A stretch of 40,802 nucleotides of DNA. It comes from a virus. Below the pieces are notes generated by a model. It saw nothing but the letters and a program-made list of their open reading frames with translations. It had not been told where the DNA came from and searched no databases. This document shows positions 3,466 through 18,480 of the stretch, piece by piece (within the stretch, counting starts at the first letter, position 1; each line of letters opens with the position of its first letter). The stretch is taken from positions 1-40,802 of the IMG/VR virus record IMGVR_UViG_3300046791_000187; one strand, written 5' to 3'. The position numbers and the translations under genes are program-made.

Positions 3466-4053
3466 CTACTCGATGTGTTTCCAGGTCTTGCGTTTACGAA
3501 CATCGCAAGCCGTGGTGGCGGTAATCCCGTATTGGGCGGCAATGTCCTTGAGAGGCCCTTGCCATGCTCTGATCGCGCGGACCTTCTTTTCATTCAGTTT
3601 GGCCATTCCATGTTCGGGGCCACGTAACGCACGCTTCCTGGCGCGGCCTTTCTCATGCATATCGCGAACGTTATCTGCCTGAGTCCCCAGAAACAAATGT
3701 TCAGGGTTAACGCATTGCGGATTATCACATTTGTGCAACACGTTCTTCCCGCCTGGAATACTGCCGTAGTGGACCAAATAGGCAAGGCGATGAGCGAGCA
3801 TGGGCCTGTCGTCTACGTCTATTCGGCCATACCCGTTCGGATCACGATAACCAACCCAATCCCAGCATCCTGGCTTCTTTCTGGTATAGACATCGAATCG
3901 TTGTCGAAGAGTCAGACCGTGATACTGTTTCTGGATCACCTTCGTAGGATCACCATGGCGTTTAAAAGCCATGTAGTGTTTGAAACAGAAGCCCAACCCC
4001 CGACATGTCTCCCCACAGTACGCGACCGAACAAACCAAAACCGGCTTAGCCAT
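3466..4053 (-). CDS. HNH homing endonuclease (free-standing)
   Basis: The 195-residue protein has a Cys-rich N-terminus (residues 7-22), then an HNH_3-type core: AHRLAYLVHYG, VLHKCDNPQCVNPEHL and FLGTQADN. These hold the paired His and Asn and the zinc-type cysteines of the fold. The C-terminal ~45 residues (LNEKKVRAIRAW ... IAAQYGITATTACDV) form a small DNA-binding helix-turn-helix. ATG 4053 is preferred over 4113 because AGGAAGGGTGG precedes it. The gene has visibly lower GC than its neighbours and interrupts the coat-gene downstream region, as expected of a recent mobile insertion. Such enzymes cut homologous DNA lacking the insertion and spread by repair. Confidence 0.85.
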   Translation of the reverse strand: MAKPVLVCSVAYCGETCRGLGFCFKHYMAFKRHGDPTKVIQKQYHGLTLRQRFDVYTRKKPGCWDWVGYRDPNGYGRIDVDDRPMLAHRLAYLVHYGSIPGGKNVLHKCDNPQCVNPEHLFLGTQADNVRDMHEKGRARKRALRGPEHGMAKLNEKKVRAIRAWQGPLKDIAAQYGITATTACDVRKRKTWKHIE

Positions 4054-4113
4054 GTGAGCCACCCTTCCTGAAAATGCTTCTTGCATCTTAGAATGAGTGG
4101 TTATATGGTGCAA

Positions 4114-5319
4114 CTAGTTGGCCGCCAACCGAACGGCCAACTGCGGCCTTAAAGCAGTCGCGCCCCATAAGACATCGATACGGATCGGCATTGTGTCATC
4201 TGAGATCGAGTACTGTCGTACCGCCCTCATACTGATCCCATCCTTGACGACCCTGCTCGCCATATCGACCCCGCCGGGCATCACCAGATCGGCTGTTGCG
4301 AATGTGAAAGCATCAGGAGCATAAGCGAGGCTCAACCCGGTCGCCGTGCTCGCCGTCCCCATGAACGTCAACCCCGCCGTCGCGTTGGCCACGGGGATGG
4401 CGACGTTCTGCGATGGGGAGCCGACCAGGGCGTTGATGGCGGGTGCGATCGCCATGTTGCCGCCGCCGCCTCCGTAGGCCGCCGTCAGCACGAACTGCTG
4501 GAGCACGCCGCTGTTGACCTTGGTCTCCGGATGTACGCGATAGACGCCGGCGATCGTGAACACGTCTCCGGCGTTGCCGGCACCCGCTCCAGTGATGACG
4601 GCGAGGGTGGCGCCGGTCACCTGATTAAGTACGATGGCCGTCGTATAAGCGGCGTTCTCGGCGCCGCGCGTCTGGGTCGTGAGGTGGGTGTTTTCGGCCC
4701 ACTCGAAGCCGCCCGCCAAACCCATTACGCCGTCAGTATATTGCCGTGCAATCTGAGTAGATTGTTGAAATAATCCTTTAAGGGCGTCGACAAGGTCGAC
4801 GTTGTCCTGTGTATTTATTCTAAGCTGCCACTGCTTGCTTTGCGGCGTCAGGTTGTCGAGCAGCATCTTGCGGGCGATCAGGACGTTCTTGAACGACTGC
4901 GCGACACCCGGCGTGCCGGCCTGATTCCACACAGTTGGCCACATCATCGCAATAACCGCAGCCTCTATCTGCGCCGCGAGAACGGCGATGGCGGGCTCGA
5001 TGTAACGGGCCGTGAAGTCGTCAATGGACAGCGTAAGTTCGGCCGACGAGAACGAGAAATCAACGTGATACTGATTGGTGATCGGCAGGCTGACCTGGGT
5101 TTCCACCGTGTTCTGCAAGCTGAGCGCCGGGGTGGTGCTGACGGTGTATTGCACCGGCAGGCGGATACGGAGCGTGCTGCCGATCTTGGCGCCGCTGTTG
5201 GCGAAGCTGTCGTCGTATTGCCTGTTGATGCTGCCTATGAAGTTGCACTTTTGGTGCAGGATCGCGAGCGCCTTGGCCGTGATCATGTTGATGGTGAGGA
5301 GTGTATTGGTGGCGGGCAT
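4114..5319 (-). CDS. Major coat protein, P22 gp5-like
   Basis: This 401-residue protein matches the P22-type HK97-fold coat family. The N-terminus LLTINMITAKALAILHQK and the NRQYDDSFANSGAKIGSTL segment are family hallmarks. They are followed by the long spine helix (LTLSIDDFTARYIEPA, residues 96-110), TQDNVDLVDALKGLFQ, and the C-terminal block GISMRAVRQYSISDD..IRIDVLWG. It builds the icosahedral shell on the scaffold encoded just upstream in the operon. The 195-bp leader before the start contains two 37-bp repeats and a hairpin. A truncated relative lies at 14922-15398. Confidence 0.9.
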   Translation of the reverse strand: MPATNTLLTINMITAKALAILHQKCNFIGSINRQYDDSFANSGAKIGSTLRIRLPVQYTVSTTPALSLQNTVETQVSLPITNQYHVDFSFSSAELTLSIDDFTARYIEPAIAVLAAQIEAAVIAMMWPTVWNQAGTPGVAQSFKNVLIARKMLLDNLTPQSKQWQLRINTQDNVDLVDALKGLFQQSTQIARQYTDGVMGLAGGFEWAENTHLTTQTRGAENAAYTTAIVLNQVTGATLAVITGAGAGNAGDVFTIAGVYRVHPETKVNSGVLQQFVLTAAYGGGGGNMAIAPAINALVGSPSQNVAIPVANATAGLTFMGTASTATGLSLAYAPDAFTFATADLVMPGGVDMASRVVKDGISMRAVRQYSISDDTMPIRIDVLWGATALRPQLAVRLAAN

Positions 5320-5515: not shown

Positions 5516-6280
5516 TTAGCGCCTCGTCTGCCGATCCATCGATTGTTTCATATAGAAATCGGCAAGTTGCTGTGCCGTCGCCGTGTATTCGTTGAACTGC
5601 GGCGATGCGCGGCCCGTCACCGGGCGCACCGGAGCGGGAGCGCGTGTTACCGGGATCGGGGGCGCCGAATGACCGTTGACCGGCCGCGACGGTGCGTCCT
5701 CGATCGTGGCGGCATACTTGCCGAGGGCCATTGACCGCGCTCGTTCCGTCTGAAGGTTCGCGATGCGTTGCAGCGCGTCAGGATCGCTTGCCAGCGCCGC
5801 CGCGACCCGCACTCCCTCGTCGGCGGGCATCTCAACCAATAGCGAGGCAATCTGAGGATCGGCTCCCATCGCCATCAGATCATCGCAGCGTTGTTTCCAG
5901 TCGGCGTATTGCGCCGCGCCCTGCTGATGGAACGTCTCGGTTCTTATTTTCGCGCGCTCCTCGGCCCTTATCTCCATCCGTTCACGCTGACTACGTTGCT
6001 CCGGCGTTTCGTCCTGGGGCGCCACGTTGGCCGCTTGCCGGCGATAGAACTCCAGTTCGGCGAGTTGTTCGGCTTCACGCCGCTCGGCGGCCGCCAGCCG
6101 CGCCCGCACCTGGGCAACCCGGCGACCCTCGGTGTCACGCTCTCGGCGTTGCGCCTCCTCCTCCGTCTGCTCCGGGGCGTCCGGCTCCGGTGTGGACTCT
6201 TGCGGCGGGGGATCGGGAACGGCGGGTTGCGGCGCGCCTCCGGGATCGGGGACGACGGGGTCGGTATTGGTTTCAGACAT
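5516..6280 (-). CDS. Scaffolding protein candidate
   Basis: This 254-residue protein lies between portal and coat, the scaffold position in the P22 lineage. The first ~40 residues are Pro- and acid-rich and probably disordered. Residues 40-115 form a charged coiled coil (AQRRERDTEGRR, ERREAEQLAELEFYRRQ). A helical core follows (residues 125-190). The tail is Pro-rich and ends in basic residues (KQSMDRQTRR), as scaffolds often do where they bind coat. No protease motif is seen. The family assignment rests on position and architecture rather than on close sequence similarity. Confidence 0.7.
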   Translation of the reverse strand: MSETNTDPVVPDPGGAPQPAVPDPPPQESTPEPDAPEQTEEEAQRRERDTEGRRVAQVRARLAAAERREAEQLAELEFYRRQAANVAPQDETPEQRSQRERMEIRAEERAKIRTETFHQQGAAQYADWKQRCDDLMAMGADPQIASLLVEMPADEGVRVAAALASDPDALQRIANLQTERARSMALGKYAATIEDAPSRPVNGHSAPPIPVTRAPAPVRPVTGRASPQFNEYTATAQQLADFYMKQSMDRQTRR

Positions 6281-6285
6281 GGGAT

Positions 6286-6483
6286 TTACCGGGGAGCGTC
6301 AGGTGGTTGATCGTGATGAATGATCGCCGGCTGGTCGTCCTCGACCGCCCGCTTCGCCAGCGAGCCGCACAGGATGGCGAGTTTAGCTTCCAGATCGAGC
6401 ACGCGATCGCGTAGCCGCTCGTTCTCGGCCAACAGCCGGGTGCGCTCGTCGACCAGTTCGGTGAGCAGTTCGGTGCCGCTCAT
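6286..6483 (-). CDS. 65-residue coiled-coil protein, unknown
   Basis: The start overlaps the portal stop (ATGA). Residues 3-50 are a leucine-heptad coiled coil (LLTELVDERTRLLAENERLRDR) and the tail is acidic and Pro-rich. It lies between portal and scaffold. I recognise no family. It may be an assembly cofactor. Confidence 0.6.
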   Translation of the reverse strand: MSGTELLTELVDERTRLLAENERLRDRVLDLEAKLAILCGSLAKRAVEDDQPAIIHHDQPPDAPR

Positions 6484-8690
6484 GCCGTCGCGCCCCCTGA
6501 AGCCGGTCCTGACGGCGCCTGGCCGTTCGCCCCGTTCACGGGCACGGGTGGCTGCGCCTTACCCGCCAACGCGCCCTCAAGCTCGGCGTGGCTATGAATG
6601 TGCGGCGTGATGTCGGTCTGCTGCATGTTCTCCCAAAGTTGGCGGGCAATCATCTGAACCAACATCGGGTCAACAGATCCCAGAGCCTGGAGGCGTTTTG
6701 TTTCTGAATCATAATTCTTGATCTCGATCTCCGCGCTCTTGTCCTTGGCCTGCTCCTGGGCATGCACGAGTTGGGCTTTGAGGCTGGCGATCTCGGCGTC
6801 GGCCTTACCCAGCATGTCCTGCGCCTGCTGTTGCATCTGCTGGGCTTGCTGCGTGACCGCCATCACCTGCGGATCTGGCCCGGCCTTGTATTGCGGCGGC
6901 AAACCCCGCTTCAGCCGCTCCGCCAGTTCGTCGGCGTTGGGGAAGTCCGAGTTCGCGGCCCAGAAATCCCCGACAATCTGAAACGCCGCCGGGTTTTGTT
7001 GCATTATCTGACTGAACGCGTTGGCCGCCTCCTGCCGTTGCGTCCCGTAAGCCGGCCCAACATCGGCCTCCACGTCATAAGTCCCGACATTTGGGTTGAA
7101 AATGATGGCGGGATCGGGTTGCGCGGGGTCTTCCTGCTGTTTCTGGGCCTCGGCGGGCGAAATCGGCCCCGGCGGCGCGCCGTTCGGCTGTTGCCCGATG
7201 TATTGGTGCGCGACAGGCAGATCAGGAACGACCATCGCCTTATTTTCGGTGCCATCCTCGGCCAGCATCATCGCCACGCGCCGCGTGTCGTATATTTTCG
7301 GTATCAGATCGAGCAAAATACGACCAACCTGACGTATGCCCTTGGCCTGATTGTCCACGTAATGATAAGTCGCGACATCACTTTGTCTTTGCCGCGCATC
7401 AATGGCACGACCGCTACGCTCGTTGCCCGGCATCCCCATCTCAGCCTGATACTGACCGGTGACGGAGCGTAAATCATCCCGCGCGATCGACATGCCCTGG
7501 ATGTAGGCCTGCGCCATGGTCGGCGGCTCGACCCGCGAGGGCGGCGGGATCGGATTCCCCGCCTCATCAATGCCGTTGTAGACCAAAACGGACCAGTTCT
7601 TGACGTTCGCCGTGGCCCACTGCTCCGTCCGCCCCTCGATCGCGTCGGCACGCGCCACGTAAGGCGTCTTGGTTTGTAGCGCGACCTGCTCGACAGCCGC
7701 CGAGGCCCAGTAATTGTAGATGCGTTGGGCATCGATCTGGGCGCGTGTATGCCCTTTCCGGTCCATCTCGCCCTCGATGACCGTCTCCTCGCCAATGAAC
7801 GGCACGATCGGGATGTATCGGCCCAACCATTGCTCACGATCGATGATCCGGTTGCCGGCCAGCTTAAACCACTCGATCTCCGGCTCCGCCACGTCACGCG
7901 ATTGAACGATCAACGCCTTGACCTGATCCCGCAACTCCGCCGGGATCTCGCTGTCGCGCACCACCGTCCCGTCCTGGAGCCGATGCAGCGTCGCGTTGTT
8001 CATGTTCCGCCGCCAATATTCCGCGATCCGCACATGGTCCTTGTCGTTCCACCCGTCGCTGTGCTCCAGCGTAGCCGGTGCGACGTTGTCCTCTTTCCCG
8101 TATTCCTCCTCGTAACGATCGCGCGGGATGTCCTCAAACACGAACGCGAAATTGGCGTTCGACTTGTCGTATTCCTTCGCGTCCGGGTCCATGTAGACCG
8201 AACGCGGATTGGGCACGCGGCGGATGAACAAGTCGAGGTCGAAGCTGTTCTCGTCAACGTAGTCCGTCTCAACCCGCACGTAGCCGATGCCGCTCTCGAC
8301 CTGATGGTATGTCGCGGTGCTGTAGGCGTCGACCGCCTTGCTAACGTATTCGATGCGCCGAATGATGCCGCTGAACACCTGCGCCGCTTCGTAGCTGGCG
8401 TGCCCGCCGACAGGAGTGACCTTGATCTGGGCCTTATTCTGCCGCGCGTCGTTGATCACCTGGAGGTTGTGCTGACGCACCTGGTTGTAGGTCAGCGTCG
8501 GCCGCTCGCCACGATCAGTCATGGTGCCGGCGTTGGAATACCACTGCCAGCCGTTCTGACTGTCACCGTTGGCGAAGCGCGTATCGAACAACGCACGCGT
8601 GCGCCACGCACTTTCCCAACCAACGCAACGCTCGAACCGCGCCTTGGCCTCCTTCAGGATGTCCTCGTCGCTGTCTTTAGCGCGTGGCAT
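6480..8690 (-). CDS. Portal protein, P22 gp1-like
   Basis: The 736-residue protein forms the dodecameric vertex through which DNA enters and leaves the head. It carries the P22 portal-family pattern: an early W..R..FD.RFA.GD...QW block, RPTLTYNQVRQHNLQVIND, IRRIEYVSKAVDAYSTA, the acidic VPNPRSVYMDPDAKEYD stretch, and a late YIGEETVIEGE-like and RSGRAIDARQRQ region. The C-terminal ~130 residues are a Gln-rich coiled coil (MQQQAQDMLGKADAEI), fitting the P22 barrel. ATG 8690 is preferred over the longer frame to 8774 because AAGGCGAG precedes it and the extra N-terminus is non-homologous and Arg-rich. Its length is close to P22 gp1 (725). Confidence 0.9.
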   Translation of the reverse strand: MPRAKDSDEDILKEAKARFERCVGWESAWRTRALFDTRFANGDSQNGWQWYSNAGTMTDRGERPTLTYNQVRQHNLQVINDARQNKAQIKVTPVGGHASYEAAQVFSGIIRRIEYVSKAVDAYSTATYHQVESGIGYVRVETDYVDENSFDLDLFIRRVPNPRSVYMDPDAKEYDKSNANFAFVFEDIPRDRYEEEYGKEDNVAPATLEHSDGWNDKDHVRIAEYWRRNMNNATLHRLQDGTVVRDSEIPAELRDQVKALIVQSRDVAEPEIEWFKLAGNRIIDREQWLGRYIPIVPFIGEETVIEGEMDRKGHTRAQIDAQRIYNYWASAAVEQVALQTKTPYVARADAIEGRTEQWATANVKNWSVLVYNGIDEAGNPIPPPSRVEPPTMAQAYIQGMSIARDDLRSVTGQYQAEMGMPGNERSGRAIDARQRQSDVATYHYVDNQAKGIRQVGRILLDLIPKIYDTRRVAMMLAEDGTENKAMVVPDLPVAHQYIGQQPNGAPPGPISPAEAQKQQEDPAQPDPAIIFNPNVGTYDVEADVGPAYGTQRQEAANAFSQIMQQNPAAFQIVGDFWAANSDFPNADELAERLKRGLPPQYKAGPDPQVMAVTQQAQQMQQQAQDMLGKADAEIASLKAQLVHAQEQAKDKSAEIEIKNYDSETKRLQALGSVDPMLVQMIARQLWENMQQTDITPHIHSHAELEGALAGKAQPPVPVNGANGQAPSGPASGGATA

Positions 8691-8922
8691 CTCTCGCCTT
8701 GATCCGCTCTTCCAACCGCGCGATGCCTTCCTTGACCGTCGCGTCCGTCGCCTCCAGGCCGCGTCTGACATCACCGACCAGCACGCGGTTCTGGTCCATC
8801 GTCGCCCGCATCGCGTTCACCTCAGACCGCAGCACGTCAACGCGCCGCTCCAGGTGATGCACCGAGGCAAGCCATGTGCTGGCGGCCGCGACACCACCGA
8901 GGATCGTGCCGGCGAGGGCCAC
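8677..8922 (-). CDS. Membrane-anchored coiled-coil protein (possible holin or spanin-like), start disturbed
   Basis: From GTG 8922 the frame gives 81 residues: a hydrophobic segment (ALAGTILGGVAAASTWLA) and a long coiled coil (residues 22-78). The same frame stays open upstream as far as a TGA at 8982, adding TVEVATSWVRQNLGIAATLV, which would complete the transmembrane helix. A GTG at 8983 overlapping the previous stop (GTGA) would reach this frame if one A of the AA at 8980-8979 were absent. The true protein may thus have 101 residues. A helix plus coiled coil next to another tiny membrane protein suggests a lysis or ejection role, unproven. Confidence 0.6.
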   Translation of the reverse strand: MALAGTILGGVAAASTWLASVHHLERRVDVLRSEVNAMRATMDQNRVLVGDVRRGLEATDATVKEGIARLEERIKARDATR

Positions 8923-14214: not shown

Positions 14215-14283
14215 TCAGGCCACGACCACCGTGTTGCTCATCGGCGCCACGGTCGAGCCGAGGGCGTTGGTGGCCGTCGTCAT
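14215..14283 (-). CDS. 22-residue repeat of the Ig-domain C-terminal strand
   Basis: This mini-frame begins ATGA over the stop of the Ig-domain gene and is in the -1 frame to it. It encodes TATNALGSTVAPMSNTVVV, nearly the same as the end of the gene before (TATNALGSTVAPASNAVV). It is either the stump of a second Ig repeat or a C-terminal extension reached by a -1 frameshift. No classical slippery heptamer is visible. Confidence 0.4.
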   Translation of the reverse strand: MTTATNALGSTVAPMSNTVVVA

Positions 14284-14783
14284 GCGGCGAACACCGCGAC
14301 CACGGCATTCGACGCCGGCGCGACCGTCGATCCCAGCGCGTTCGTCGCGGTGACAACGCACGCGAGACCATGCCCCGCATCATCCGCCGTAACGGTATAG
14401 GTCGCGCTCGTCGCGCCACTGATCGCGACACCATCCTTTTGCCAGGCATAGGCATAAGAAGTCGGCTCACCGCGCCAGTTGCCCATGGTGCAATTGACCA
14501 CGCCATCACTTTGCGAAACGAAGGGGACGTCCACGACAACCGGAGGCCCCGCCATGGCGACCACCTCGGCGAGAAGAGCCGCGATTTCCAGGCTGTGCGT
14601 GCGATCGTTGTTGAGCCAGTCCGTCGTCAGCAGCAGCAGCATCCGCGCCTGATCCTTGGTCGCGTCTCTCGGCGTCGCCGTCGCGGCTTTTGGCTCGGCC
14701 GTCGCGGTCGCGGCCGGCTTCCGGTCGTGCTCTCTCTCTTTGGTGTCGGCGTGCGGCGCGGGATGCGAGGGTGCGTTGGCCAT
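14280..14783 (-). CDS. Ig-like domain virion protein
   Basis: The 167-residue protein has a hydrophilic, Ala/Lys/Thr-rich N-terminus (1-45), a helical segment (ARMLLLLTTDWLNND, 46-75), and a C-terminal Ig-like domain (80-165). The domain shows the C...W.....Y.Y.W...G....G.....Y.....D.G....C.V.A.N..G pattern with paired cysteines. Phages display such domains to bind surfaces weakly. It stands first in the adhesin block. Confidence 0.7.
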   Translation of the reverse strand: MANAPSHPAPHADTKEREHDRKPAATATAEPKAATATPRDATKDQARMLLLLTTDWLNNDRTHSLEIAALLAEVVAMAGPPVVVDVPFVSQSDGVVNCTMGNWRGEPTSYAYAWQKDGVAISGATSATYTVTADDAGHGLACVVTATNALGSTVAPASNAVVAVFAA

Positions 14784-14921: not shown

Positions 14922-15398
14922 TCATGAGTGCCGCACATCGAAACAAAGCATCTGGGCGTCATAGCCGATGCTGTAAACGCTGAGCACACGTGTCTGGATG
15001 CCGTTCCTGTCGCTGAAAGCGTAATTATCGATGCCATGTGGAACGGACAACTCCGCTCCAATAGCGAGGGTTCCGCCTCTTTTGTTGACGGTGGACGCGA
15101 TCATTTCCGCCGCCGGCGCGATGTAGCGTCCAGAGAACTGCTCCATGGAAAGCATCAATTGCTTCGGCGGTATTTTCAGATCGACCGTTCCCTGTTGAAT
15201 CGCGTCGGAAGAAACGAACCCCGTGCCAACCATTGCCTGCAAGCGCCGATTGAACTCCCGCGCGATCATCTCGGGCGTTATGATACCTTTCGGCCCATGG
15301 GTCGGGAGCGCCAAGGTCGATACGGGCATCAGCAACCCCGGCGTGGTGATGACCGCGGGCGCGGCGAACAGACCACCAAGGAAAGACCGACGCCGCAT
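14922..15398 (-). CDS. Truncated coat-like protein with Tat-like N-terminus
   Basis: The 158-residue protein starts directly after the TerL stop (TAGATG). It begins RRRSFLGGLFAAPAVITTPG, a twin-arginine-type signal (RRRSFLG plus a hydrophobic stretch). Later segments resemble the phage's own coat protein. Residues 71-102 (VDLKIPPKQLMLSMEQFSG, RYIAPAAEMIA) align without gaps to coat 85-116 with 12 of 32 identical. Residues 132-158 (GIQTRVLSVYSIGYD) align to GISMRAVRQYSISDD. IITPEMIAREF matches the coat start LLTINMITAKA. The ~240-residue middle is absent. Function unknown: minor shell protein, decoy or degenerate paralogue. Confidence 0.65.
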   Translation of the reverse strand: MRRRSFLGGLFAAPAVITTPGLLMPVSTLALPTHGPKGIITPEMIAREFNRRLQAMVGTGFVSSDAIQQGTVDLKIPPKQLMLSMEQFSGRYIAPAAEMIASTVNKRGGTLAIGAELSVPHGIDNYAFSDRNGIQTRVLSVYSIGYDAQMLCFDVRHS

Positions 15399-16772
15399 CT
15401 AAACCCCCATCCACCCCGTGCTCGTCCGCACGCCCTCGACCCACTGGCCGCGCGAGAACGACGCTCGCTGCGCCGCGACGATGTCAAGGCCAGTGTCGGG
15501 CCGCGCCTCCTTCAACCCCATCGCCAAAGTTCGAACGGCATCGCAACAATGCGAAGACCAATCATGGATCGGCGCATCCTTGAACACGCCCAGGCGGTCG
15601 TTGAAGTCGCGATGGTAGTAGACCATGCACTCGCGCAGCCGCTCGGTGCGAACACGATCCATCCAGCACCTCGGCAGCAGCATCTTCACCGCGTTGATCC
15701 CGTCATCGATATCCTGACGCGGCACTACGCGCACCTTCCGACCGTTGGCGCGTAGCAACTCCTCGCGCGTCTTGCCGGTGCCCAGTTCTCGCGCGCCGGC
15801 ATCGTGAGGAAGCAGATCGGTGGTATATCGATAGGGTTTGTTATCCAGCCAATGCACATAGTGCGTCAGTGGCTCGCCCACTGCCTCATAGTAGTCGATG
15901 ACATGCACCTCGCGGCCCACGAGCTGCGCGCAGACGATCGCCGTGGCATCGCCGATCCCCAGATCCCACGCTGTCCAGACAGGCACGGCCGGGTCATACG
16001 GGACACTGCAGATACGTCCATCAGCGTCAGCCGCGGCCATCTCGGCACGATAGATCGAACCACGAATGGCCGCGTCGAAGCTGACCTCGAGTTCCTGGTC
16101 ATACTGATCGGCGGTTAATGTTCGCCGCATGTCGTCCAGTTCGGACTGAGGCAACAGTCCGCTCTGGGATGCCCGCAATACCATCGAGAACCATAATGGA
16201 TTATCTTGGGCTTCCTTGTGGATGGCATAAAAGTCGTTGCGACCCTTCGGCGTGCCGATGAACACCGCCCAACCGTTACGGTCGGCCAGTGATGGACGGA
16301 TGACCTCGGGCCACGCACGAGGATCGATGTCGCCATATTCATCGAGCACGACGCCGTCAGCGAAGGTGCCACGCAGCCGGTCATAGTTCTCAGCGCCGTA
16401 CAGACGAACGCGGCTGCCATTCGGGAACAGTACCATCAGGTCGCTCTCGCGTTGCTCAACACCTGGGATGTCAGCGGTGAAGCGCTTCAGGTACGACCAG
16501 GCCGTGTCCTTGGATTGCGCGTAGGTTGGCGCCAAATAAGCAAAGCGTCCGTCAGGCTTCTTGCAGCGCAGAGCTGCGTCGATGAGATCCATCACACAGG
16601 CGACGGTCTTGCCGGCGCGGCGATGAACGACAAGACAGGCCCAACGCTGTTTGCGCGCATGGAACGCGGCAAACTGCGAACGCGCAGTATAGCCAAGCTC
16701 AATCTTTGATGGTCTCGTTGCCACTGATTTCGCCGCGATCGACGCCTGTAACGATGAGGACGGGGCCGCCAT
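15399..16772 (-). CDS. terL: Terminase large subunit (packaging ATPase-nuclease)
   Basis: TerL threads DNA into the procapsid and cuts it. The 457-residue protein shows IELGYTARSQFAAFHARKQR, the Walker A variant HRRAGKT (50-56), APTYAQSKDTAW, Walker B VVLDE (141-145) and FIGTPKG (coupling motif, 171-177). In the RNase-H-like nuclease, D270 in TAWDLGIGDATAIV is the first acidic residue, and the closing SSHCCDAVRTLAMG helix carries the last. ATG 16772 overlaps the small upstream gene by 74 bases. A GTG at 16722 would remove most of the overlap and keep the conserved start. Circular permutation of the window suggests headful cutting. Confidence 0.92.
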   Translation of the reverse strand: MAAPSSSLQASIAAKSVATRPSKIELGYTARSQFAAFHARKQRWACLVVHRRAGKTVACVMDLIDAALRCKKPDGRFAYLAPTYAQSKDTAWSYLKRFTADIPGVEQRESDLMVLFPNGSRVRLYGAENYDRLRGTFADGVVLDEYGDIDPRAWPEVIRPSLADRNGWAVFIGTPKGRNDFYAIHKEAQDNPLWFSMVLRASQSGLLPQSELDDMRRTLTADQYDQELEVSFDAAIRGSIYRAEMAAADADGRICSVPYDPAVPVWTAWDLGIGDATAIVCAQLVGREVHVIDYYEAVGEPLTHYVHWLDNKPYRYTTDLLPHDAGARELGTGKTREELLRANGRKVRVVPRQDIDDGINAVKMLLPRCWMDRVRTERLRECMVYYHRDFNDRLGVFKDAPIHDWSSHCCDAVRTLAMGLKEARPDTGLDIVAAQRASFSRGQWVEGVRTSTGWMGV

Positions 16773-17640: not shown

Positions 17641-18480
17641 TTACGCTGTATCGCCCGACGTGGCGGCGGATGCAAGAGGCCACGCGGCGCCTCCTGAGGG
17701 GTCTGTGCGGCGTGGACGGCGGCTGGCGGTGACATAACCCAGGGCGGCCAGTCCGACGCCGAGGATGGCGAGGGCGGCTGGCTCGGGCGTATCCACGACG
17801 TCAGCGGTGGGAACAACCACCAGGTAGAAGCTCTCGGCGCCGTCGCTGGCACCTGACCACGCGGCATGGAAGAGCAGGCTGTCGCCCGGCTGGATCTTGC
17901 AGTCGGCCAGGACGAACGAGCCTGAGTCACGGCAACCGAGCGAGAGGTCGAAGCCGGAGATGAGGTAGTCGCCCTTGCCGTTGCCGTTGGCGGTGTCTGG
18001 CAGCGCGAGTGGCAGTCCGGTCAGGTCGAAGATGATGCGTTGCCCAGCGGGCTTGCTCAGGTCGATCAGTTGGAATGCTTCGAGCGTCTCGCCGTTGTGC
18101 GCGGTGTTGACGTCGATCACGACGCCGAAGTGGAACAGCGGATCGTTGCCGGATGCGTTGAGGAAGCTTTGCAGGAAGCTGTCTGTGTAGCCGACCGCGT
18201 TGGCTTCGAGGTCGCCCACGACCACCCCTCCGCCGCCTGGGTTGATGTTCGTGCTGAAGGTGTTGAACGACGTATCGTTTCCATGGGAGCTGAAGTCGTT
18301 ATAGCCGAACAGTGCGGGTTGCTGTCCCTGATTGGTGCCGCAGATGATGCACGGGGCGGACTGCGATTGGGGCACGGGGTTGGAGAGCGTTGTGACCGTC
18401 AGCGCCGCGTGCGCGGGGATTGTGAGCTGCCCGAAATATCATGCTCCGGCGACGACGGCGGCTGCGAGCGTGCGTTTCAT
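17641..18480 (-). CDS. PEP-CTERM surface protein (moron), signal peptide interrupted by in-frame TGA
   Basis: The frame opens at ATG 18480 with a signal peptide (MKRTLAAAVVAGA, then YFGQLTIPAHA). It is broken by TGA at 18441-18439 (codon 14) and is then open to 17641. The mature part begins near SAPCIICGTNQ, a start seen in secreted PEP-CTERM proteins. It ends in a sorting signal, TPEPAALAILGVGLAALGYV, followed by ASRRPRR. Such signals are recognised by host exosortase. A 19-residue tail after the Arg cluster is unusual. An intact frame exists only from GTG 18375, which would lack the signal peptide. The gene has its own promoter and terminator and probably alters the lysogen surface; the effect is unknown. 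Confidence 0.8.

Follow-up and report, generated by a model that had tools for sequence, protein, structure and literature searches.

Vertex proteins of the T4 gp24 type are coat paralogues carried in the same phage genome as the coat itself, and gp24 has a full-length HK97 fold. Ccm of the satellite SaPIbov5, a coat homologue with the HK97 fold, enters procapsids and redirects their assembly; it possesses the complete fold, keeps the A-domain and forms pentamers (PMC8569155). Among open-access publications, nothing beyond Ccm was found on truncated or P-domain-only coat paralogues, which is weak evidence of absence.

Here we describe a 158-residue protein, called the mini-coat below, encoded in a 40,802-nucleotide stretch of viral DNA (IMG/VR record IMGVR_UViG_3300046791_000187), which is referred to as the window. 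Judged from its predicted structure, the mini-coat is the P-domain and N-arm of a coat protein that has lost the A-domain, the insertion domain and most of the E-loop. As in P22 gp5 (PF11651, PHROG_283), an N-arm is followed by a spine helix and then by C-terminal P-domain strands, but the mini-coat differs in length (158 against about 400 residues), in the missing domains and in an added N-terminal leader. Like Ccm, it is an accessory homologue of the coat and not the coat itself, which is present at full length elsewhere in the window; unlike Ccm, it is without the part that forms the capsomer centre and comes from a phage that has a head module of its own, whereas Ccm is satellite-borne and belongs to a different coat family. 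The likeness to T4 gp24 lies in being a coat paralogue within a phage genome, the difference in consisting of a P-domain only. A stable P-domain-only coat beside packaging genes would show the minimal HK97 fold needed to address a capsid lattice, and would contrast with the complete fold of Ccm, the coat paralogue for which redirection of assembly has been demonstrated.

Genomic setting of the mini-coat gene

The open reading frame and its length had been called in the first-pass annotation, whose coordinates are exact; the strand is minus. The genes relevant to its setting are as follows:

4114..5319, minus strand: P22-type major coat protein, full-length, 401 aa (PF11651 E 1e-25; PHROG_283 E 2e-59)
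5516..6280, minus strand: scaffolding protein (PHROG_8865 E 3e-13)
6480..8774, minus strand: P22-type portal protein (PF16510 E 2e-159)
14280..14783, minus strand: Ig-domain protein (PF13895), just downstream of the mini-coat, on the far side of a variable gene slot
14922..15398, minus strand: mini-coat ORF P0001, 158 aa, assigned from coat homology and predicted fold
15399..16772, minus strand: terminase large subunit, TerL (PHROG_2 E 2e-35), directly upstream of the mini-coat

The TAG stop codon of TerL directly abuts the ATG of the mini-coat, and the P22-type head module (TerL, portal, scaffold and coat) lies on the same strand. A related genome with a 97% identical TerL (L003) carries different genes at this place after TerL, which marks the position as an accessory slot of variable content.

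Two further reading frames of the window were noted in passing. Read from its sequence, the ORF at 3466-4113 (minus), directly 3' of the coat gene, appears to encode an HNH-type endonuclease. The ORF at 17641-18375 (minus) ends in a PEP-CTERM-like sorting tail (TPEPAALAILGVGLAALGYVTASRRPRR), which is unusual in a phage; a similar ORF is present at L200:173-910.

Homology to the P22-type coat

Among 8,542 ORFs searched with phmmer, the coat of the same genome was the top non-self match for the mini-coat (E 3e-4, two collinear domains). Chance similarity is ruled out by a shuffle control on the coat-family profile score described below, in which none of 20,000 shuffled sequences reached the observed 26.2 bits, the shuffled maximum being 11.3. 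The first-pass annotation had aligned three segments of the mini-coat with this coat, and they fared differently. A direct count of the spine helix confirms 12 identical residues out of 32 without gaps (GTVDLKIPPKQLMLSMEQFSGRYIAPAAEMIA against YHVDFSFSSAELTLSIDDFTARYIEPAIAVLA), and two-sequence BLASTP finds the C-terminal block 14/41 identical at E 4e-4. The N-terminal ITPEMI match is weak when taken alone, the coat starting with LLTINMI, and is upheld only through collinearity and structure. As for the central residues said to be missing, about 240 in number, a large loss is indeed seen, but it is divided between two gaps, one removing most of the E-loop (about 45 residues) and the other coat residues ~122-342 (about 220).

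Profile searches agree with the pairwise comparison. A coat-family profile of 68 related coats matches the mini-coat at E 2.3e-6, with segments at profile positions 73-124 and 344-385; profile positions ~125-343 have no counterpart, and the mini-coat is therefore not classed as a major coat. A functional major coat has an A-domain, an insertion domain, an E-loop and about 400 residues, a set that the mini-coat does not have. In hhalign, the block comprising the E-loop return strand and the spine helix aligns with the coat at E 6e-9. PHROG_283, 'major head protein', matches P0001 at E 0.002 and three of its orthologues at E 3e-4, 9e-7 and 1e-4. A profile built from only four unrelated coats (MW202483, DSL-LC05, PAE2 and PBR31) gives E 2e-5 for the mini-coat of the window, the first unrelated ORF below 250 aa of the clade having E 0.28; this protein, its orthologues, the L198 mini, both minis of L203 and the majority of the remaining coat fragments all outrank any unrelated small ORF. 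With the same profile, a group of 110-aa minis scores E 0.03-1.3, around this background level, and its assignment draws on other lines of evidence.

The relationship is also found in reverse. When a profile of three minis was searched against five independent phages, the coat was the top match in all five (E 5e-7 to 8e-11), and a wider mini-family profile retrieves the coat in nearly every record having a P22-type coat. Neither P0001 nor the other minis tested match PF11651 (P22_CoatProtein) at the gathering cut-off, so that the mini-coat is a distant relative of the coat and not a family member by the Pfam cut-off. When the mini profile was run against the sequences of solved structures, no capsid was retrieved.

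Predicted fold

The structure was predicted with AlphaFold2 from eight mini protein sequences only, without coats and without templates. The model of the mini-coat has a mean pLDDT of 70.5, with ten-residue means of 61-90 over residues 31-158, and contains a helix at 42-57, a strand at 68-76, a helix at 85-106 and strands at 125-131, 134-143 and 148-157. The protein can be divided into four parts:

15309..15398, minus strand: Tat-like leader, residues 1-30 (MRRRSFLGGLFAAPAVITTPGLLMPVSTLA), conserved in three orthologues, unstructured in the model with pLDDT below 50
15228..15293, minus strand: N-arm-like helix block, residues 36-57, covering the first predicted helix; weak sequence match, aligned from residue 2 of the P22 coat chain
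15081..15218, minus strand: E-loop return strand and spine helix, residues 61-106, covering the first predicted strand and the second helix; supported by the first segment of the coat profile, PHROG_283 and hhalign
14928..15059, minus strand: C-terminal P-domain strands, residues 114-157, covering the last three predicted strands; supported by the second segment of the coat profile and BLASTP

Comparison of the model with the P22 coat had been proposed beforehand, and HK97-like elements are present in the predicted structure. The modelled arrangement, an N-arm and a long spine helix lying against a beta sheet, is that of the coat P-domain and N-arm. Against solved structures, VIA-align ranks the P22 procapsid coat first (Z 10.9, rmsd 3.2 over 119 residues, residues 33-158 of the model spanning coat residues 2-412), followed by Douge (7.2), Sf6 (7.0), CUS-3 (6.7) and encapsulins (5.9). 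All chains at ranks 1-11 are capsids or encapsulins, and the first non-capsid chain has a Z of 4.5. Foldseek against the PDB also has capsids at the top, at an E of 0.05 that is only suggestive. Against predicted viral proteins, its top match is A0A6J5NY35 (E 8e-6), an uncharacterized 116-aa protein of an uncultured Caudovirales phage that has the same predicted fold (probability 1.0, TM 0.68 over the target) at only 18% identity; the head vertex protein of phage nt-1 is a low-ranked match in that search. Sequence comparison, profiles in both directions and the predicted structure thus bear out the earlier description of a shortened capsid-fold protein. On this combined basis a true relationship to the P22-type coat is strongly supported, and we are highly confident in identifying the mini-coat as a P-domain-only coat relative.

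The N-terminal leader

Tat signal peptides have an RRxFL motif and a hydrophobic stretch and may be cleaved after an alanine, all features that the leader of the mini-coat has in common with them. The RRxFL motif and hydrophobic stretch reported in the first-pass annotation are present and recur in three further orthologues. When roughly the first 40 residues were used as a query, the same 26-29-aa leader was recovered in 35 loci, 34 of them with the arginine pair, where it precedes 18 unrelated clusters of C-terminal parts. The mini-coat cluster is the only coat-like one among these. The label 'Tat-like' is therefore apt for the motif, but the leader is a portable module and not a coat-specific one; being common to many unrelated phage proteins, it says nothing specific about the coat. 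The words [TR]PGLLMPV or STLA-P were required by the search and are invariant for that reason, a bias that affects the RR and AP..I parts less. Conservation of TPGLLMPV far exceeds what is usual in Tat signal peptides, partly owing to this search design. NCBIfam gives no Tat-signal match for the leader. Going by its sequence, Tat transport is plausible.

The consensus M.RR.FL.GL.AAPA.I.TPGLLMPV is found across L218-L252 (e.g. L221:4001-4537, L223:3998-4480 and L249:3992-4348), and L238 apparently carries two leader genes in tandem. The leader proteins of L241 and L250 were considered as possible mini-coats of other capsid families, for which PHROG gives no support. The portable leader constitutes a separate, second lead, covering many unannotated phage proteins.

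Orthologues, leaderless forms and distribution

A near-identical genome (IMGVR 3300046535_000852) carries the same mini-coat ORF, and three more distant orthologues retain both leader and body. P0009 (L210:6001-6483, 62% identity) lies 3' of a divergent TerL, P0005 (L200:4143-4628, 53% identity) directly 3' of the portal gene, and the third (L220:2330-2827) between scaffold and coat. The position at the terminase end, emphasized in the first-pass annotation, is thus seen in the window and several relatives but is no rule. Mini ORFs abut or overlap the stop codon of TerL or portal. Between orthologues, dN is 0.28-0.40 and dS 1.2-3.2, the latter near saturation; since dN is well below dS, the protein is kept by purifying selection.

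Leaderless minis comprise L198:371-727, L203:1720-2124 and the 110-aa group (L023, L025, L031 and L085-L087). In the 110-aa group, dN/dS is only moderately below 1, and the predicted structure has the same order of elements, with HK97 matches only up to Z 5.2.

The full form occurs in 11 of the 52 records examined and is absent from most close relatives of the window phage. Five independent phage genomes with P22-type coats contain no mini, and none was found in the bacterial and archaeal genome contigs scanned. With tblastn, P0001 and P0004 have no match even at E 1 among annotated phages (50,697 phage records), nor has P0001 among plasmids at the same threshold.

Relation of the minis to coat proteins

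When minis were compared with coats, the coat of the same genome was not consistently the closest, and these scores give no support to descent of each mini from the coat of its own genome as a general rule. L203 carries two mini-coats, at L203:4358-4675 and L203:1720-2124. For its portal-side mini, the own coat is the best match, whereas the TerL-side mini matches the coats of other clades (score 113, median 102) and ranks its own coat, at 37, last of 76. This pattern fits either a mini that interferes with other phages or an exchange of the coat gene.

Proposed role and alternative explanations

The mini-coat can be described as an accessory coat paralogue reduced to the N-arm, the E-loop return strand, the spine helix and the C-terminal P-domain strands, to which a portable leader has been added. 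In the infected cell it might dock on coat subunits through the retained P-domain and N-arm contacts; because there is no A-domain, it presumably could not form capsomer centres. Acting at low copy number, it would then modulate capsid assembly: nucleation or completion of a special site, for example the portal vertex, is one possibility, and arrest of competing lattices another. Through its leader the protein may be tethered to the inner membrane or exported across it, which is the least certain step. Of the three roles envisaged in the first-pass annotation, namely capping a vertex, regulating assembly or acting outside the virion, an assembly modulator is slightly favoured. Reciprocal homology, the fold, the recurrence of the family, selection, the TerL and portal junctions and the Ccm precedent speak for such a modulator. 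Against it stand the lack of consistent closeness to the own coat, the TerL-side mini of L203, which fits simple co-assembly badly, the absence from most close relatives, and the consideration that export by the leader would take the protein away from the assembly site. The complete statement, docking on lattice contacts together with modulation of assembly, is the reading we favour but offer tentatively, and we think it somewhat more apt to fail than to hold. If true, it would provide a natural assembly modulator for P22-like phages and account for 'hypothetical' genes found near terminase, portal and coat.

The genes beside TerL, portal, scaffold or coat would suit a minor virion component, built in at one site (the portal ring or a vertex) with a structural and not a regulatory role. 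Abutting a TerL or portal stop codon is what might be expected of a low-copy vertex protein, and the P-domain fold, as modelled, retains inter-capsomer elements. We nevertheless find this unlikely, as the gene is patchily distributed, its leader is common to proteins without coat similarity and it shows no specific match to the own coat. Patchy occurrence in a variable slot is typical of accessory genes and would agree with coat-directed interference, in which A-domain-less subunits poison the assembly of related phages, a piracy of the Ccm type (PMC8569155) but phage-borne. The two minis of L203, one closest to foreign coats and the other to its own, would suit such a weapon, but coat-gene replacement explains them equally well and the own coat of the producing phage would have to resist the mini-coat, which makes this explanation rather unlikely. 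A broader version, that recurrent A-domain-less mini-coats, some of them membrane-tethered by the leader, act in trans on assembly, other phages' coats included, and that the leader serves phage accessory proteins in general as a targeting module, strikes us as improbable.

The leader is also central to a possible role outside the cytoplasm, where it would export the P-domain or anchor it at the inner membrane for superinfection exclusion or an action on the envelope. Its nearly invariant arginine pair, hydrophobic stretch and alanines at possible cleavage sites (STLA, VKA) favour this, as does its very strong conservation among orthologues; yet the NCBIfam search, the existence of leaderless minis and the want of an obvious periplasmic target for a coat P-domain render it quite improbable. 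We hold it very improbable that the minis are decaying or neutral debris of coat genes without function. Coat fragments of many shapes, permuted ones included, do occur in relatives, and debris would be in keeping with the patchy distribution and the modest constraint on the 110-aa group, but the reading frame is intact in four orthologues, which share their ends and their leader and occupy three distinct places in the genomes, and dN is well below dS where measured. Finally, direct activation of bacterial immunity by a viral capsid protein has been described (PMC9712102), and a domain that keeps the coat surface yet is unable to assemble would suit a decoy that binds a host capsid sensor without triggering it. 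Nothing in the data points specifically to a decoy, and its probability is slight.

Other coat-derived fragments and split coat genes

Coat-like fragments of other architectures were observed in related genomes. In L161-L165, L200:6862-7206 and L201:1796-2101, a coiled-coil-like or other new N-terminus is fused to the coat N-arm and the start of the E-loop; these fusion proteins have no other coat segment, are coat-like by profile and are encoded 5' of the coat or 3' of the portal gene, beside portal, scaffold or coat. In L142, L143, L145 and L146 (ORFs ending at about 2156, 2369, 2156 and 2129, respectively), the order is permuted, so that the coat spine block precedes the N-arm/E-loop block. 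The permuted proteins are encoded 5' of the coat, have a tryptophan-rich hydrophobic stretch between the two blocks and are likewise coat-like by profile. The exon of an intron-split coat was considered as the source of fragments upstream of the coat and was rejected, because full-length coat genes follow those fragments.

Coat genes interrupted by true group I introns (RF00028) do occur, as a separate phenomenon, the split falling after about residue 31-34 (L206:1253-2005 and L207:1237-1996, minus strand). G001 and G018 have coats broken at this same point, with no Rfam match at the gathering score. In L216:16569-18084 (MW202674), the coat is annotated in two pieces around a small ORF, which may reflect an intron or a frameshift.
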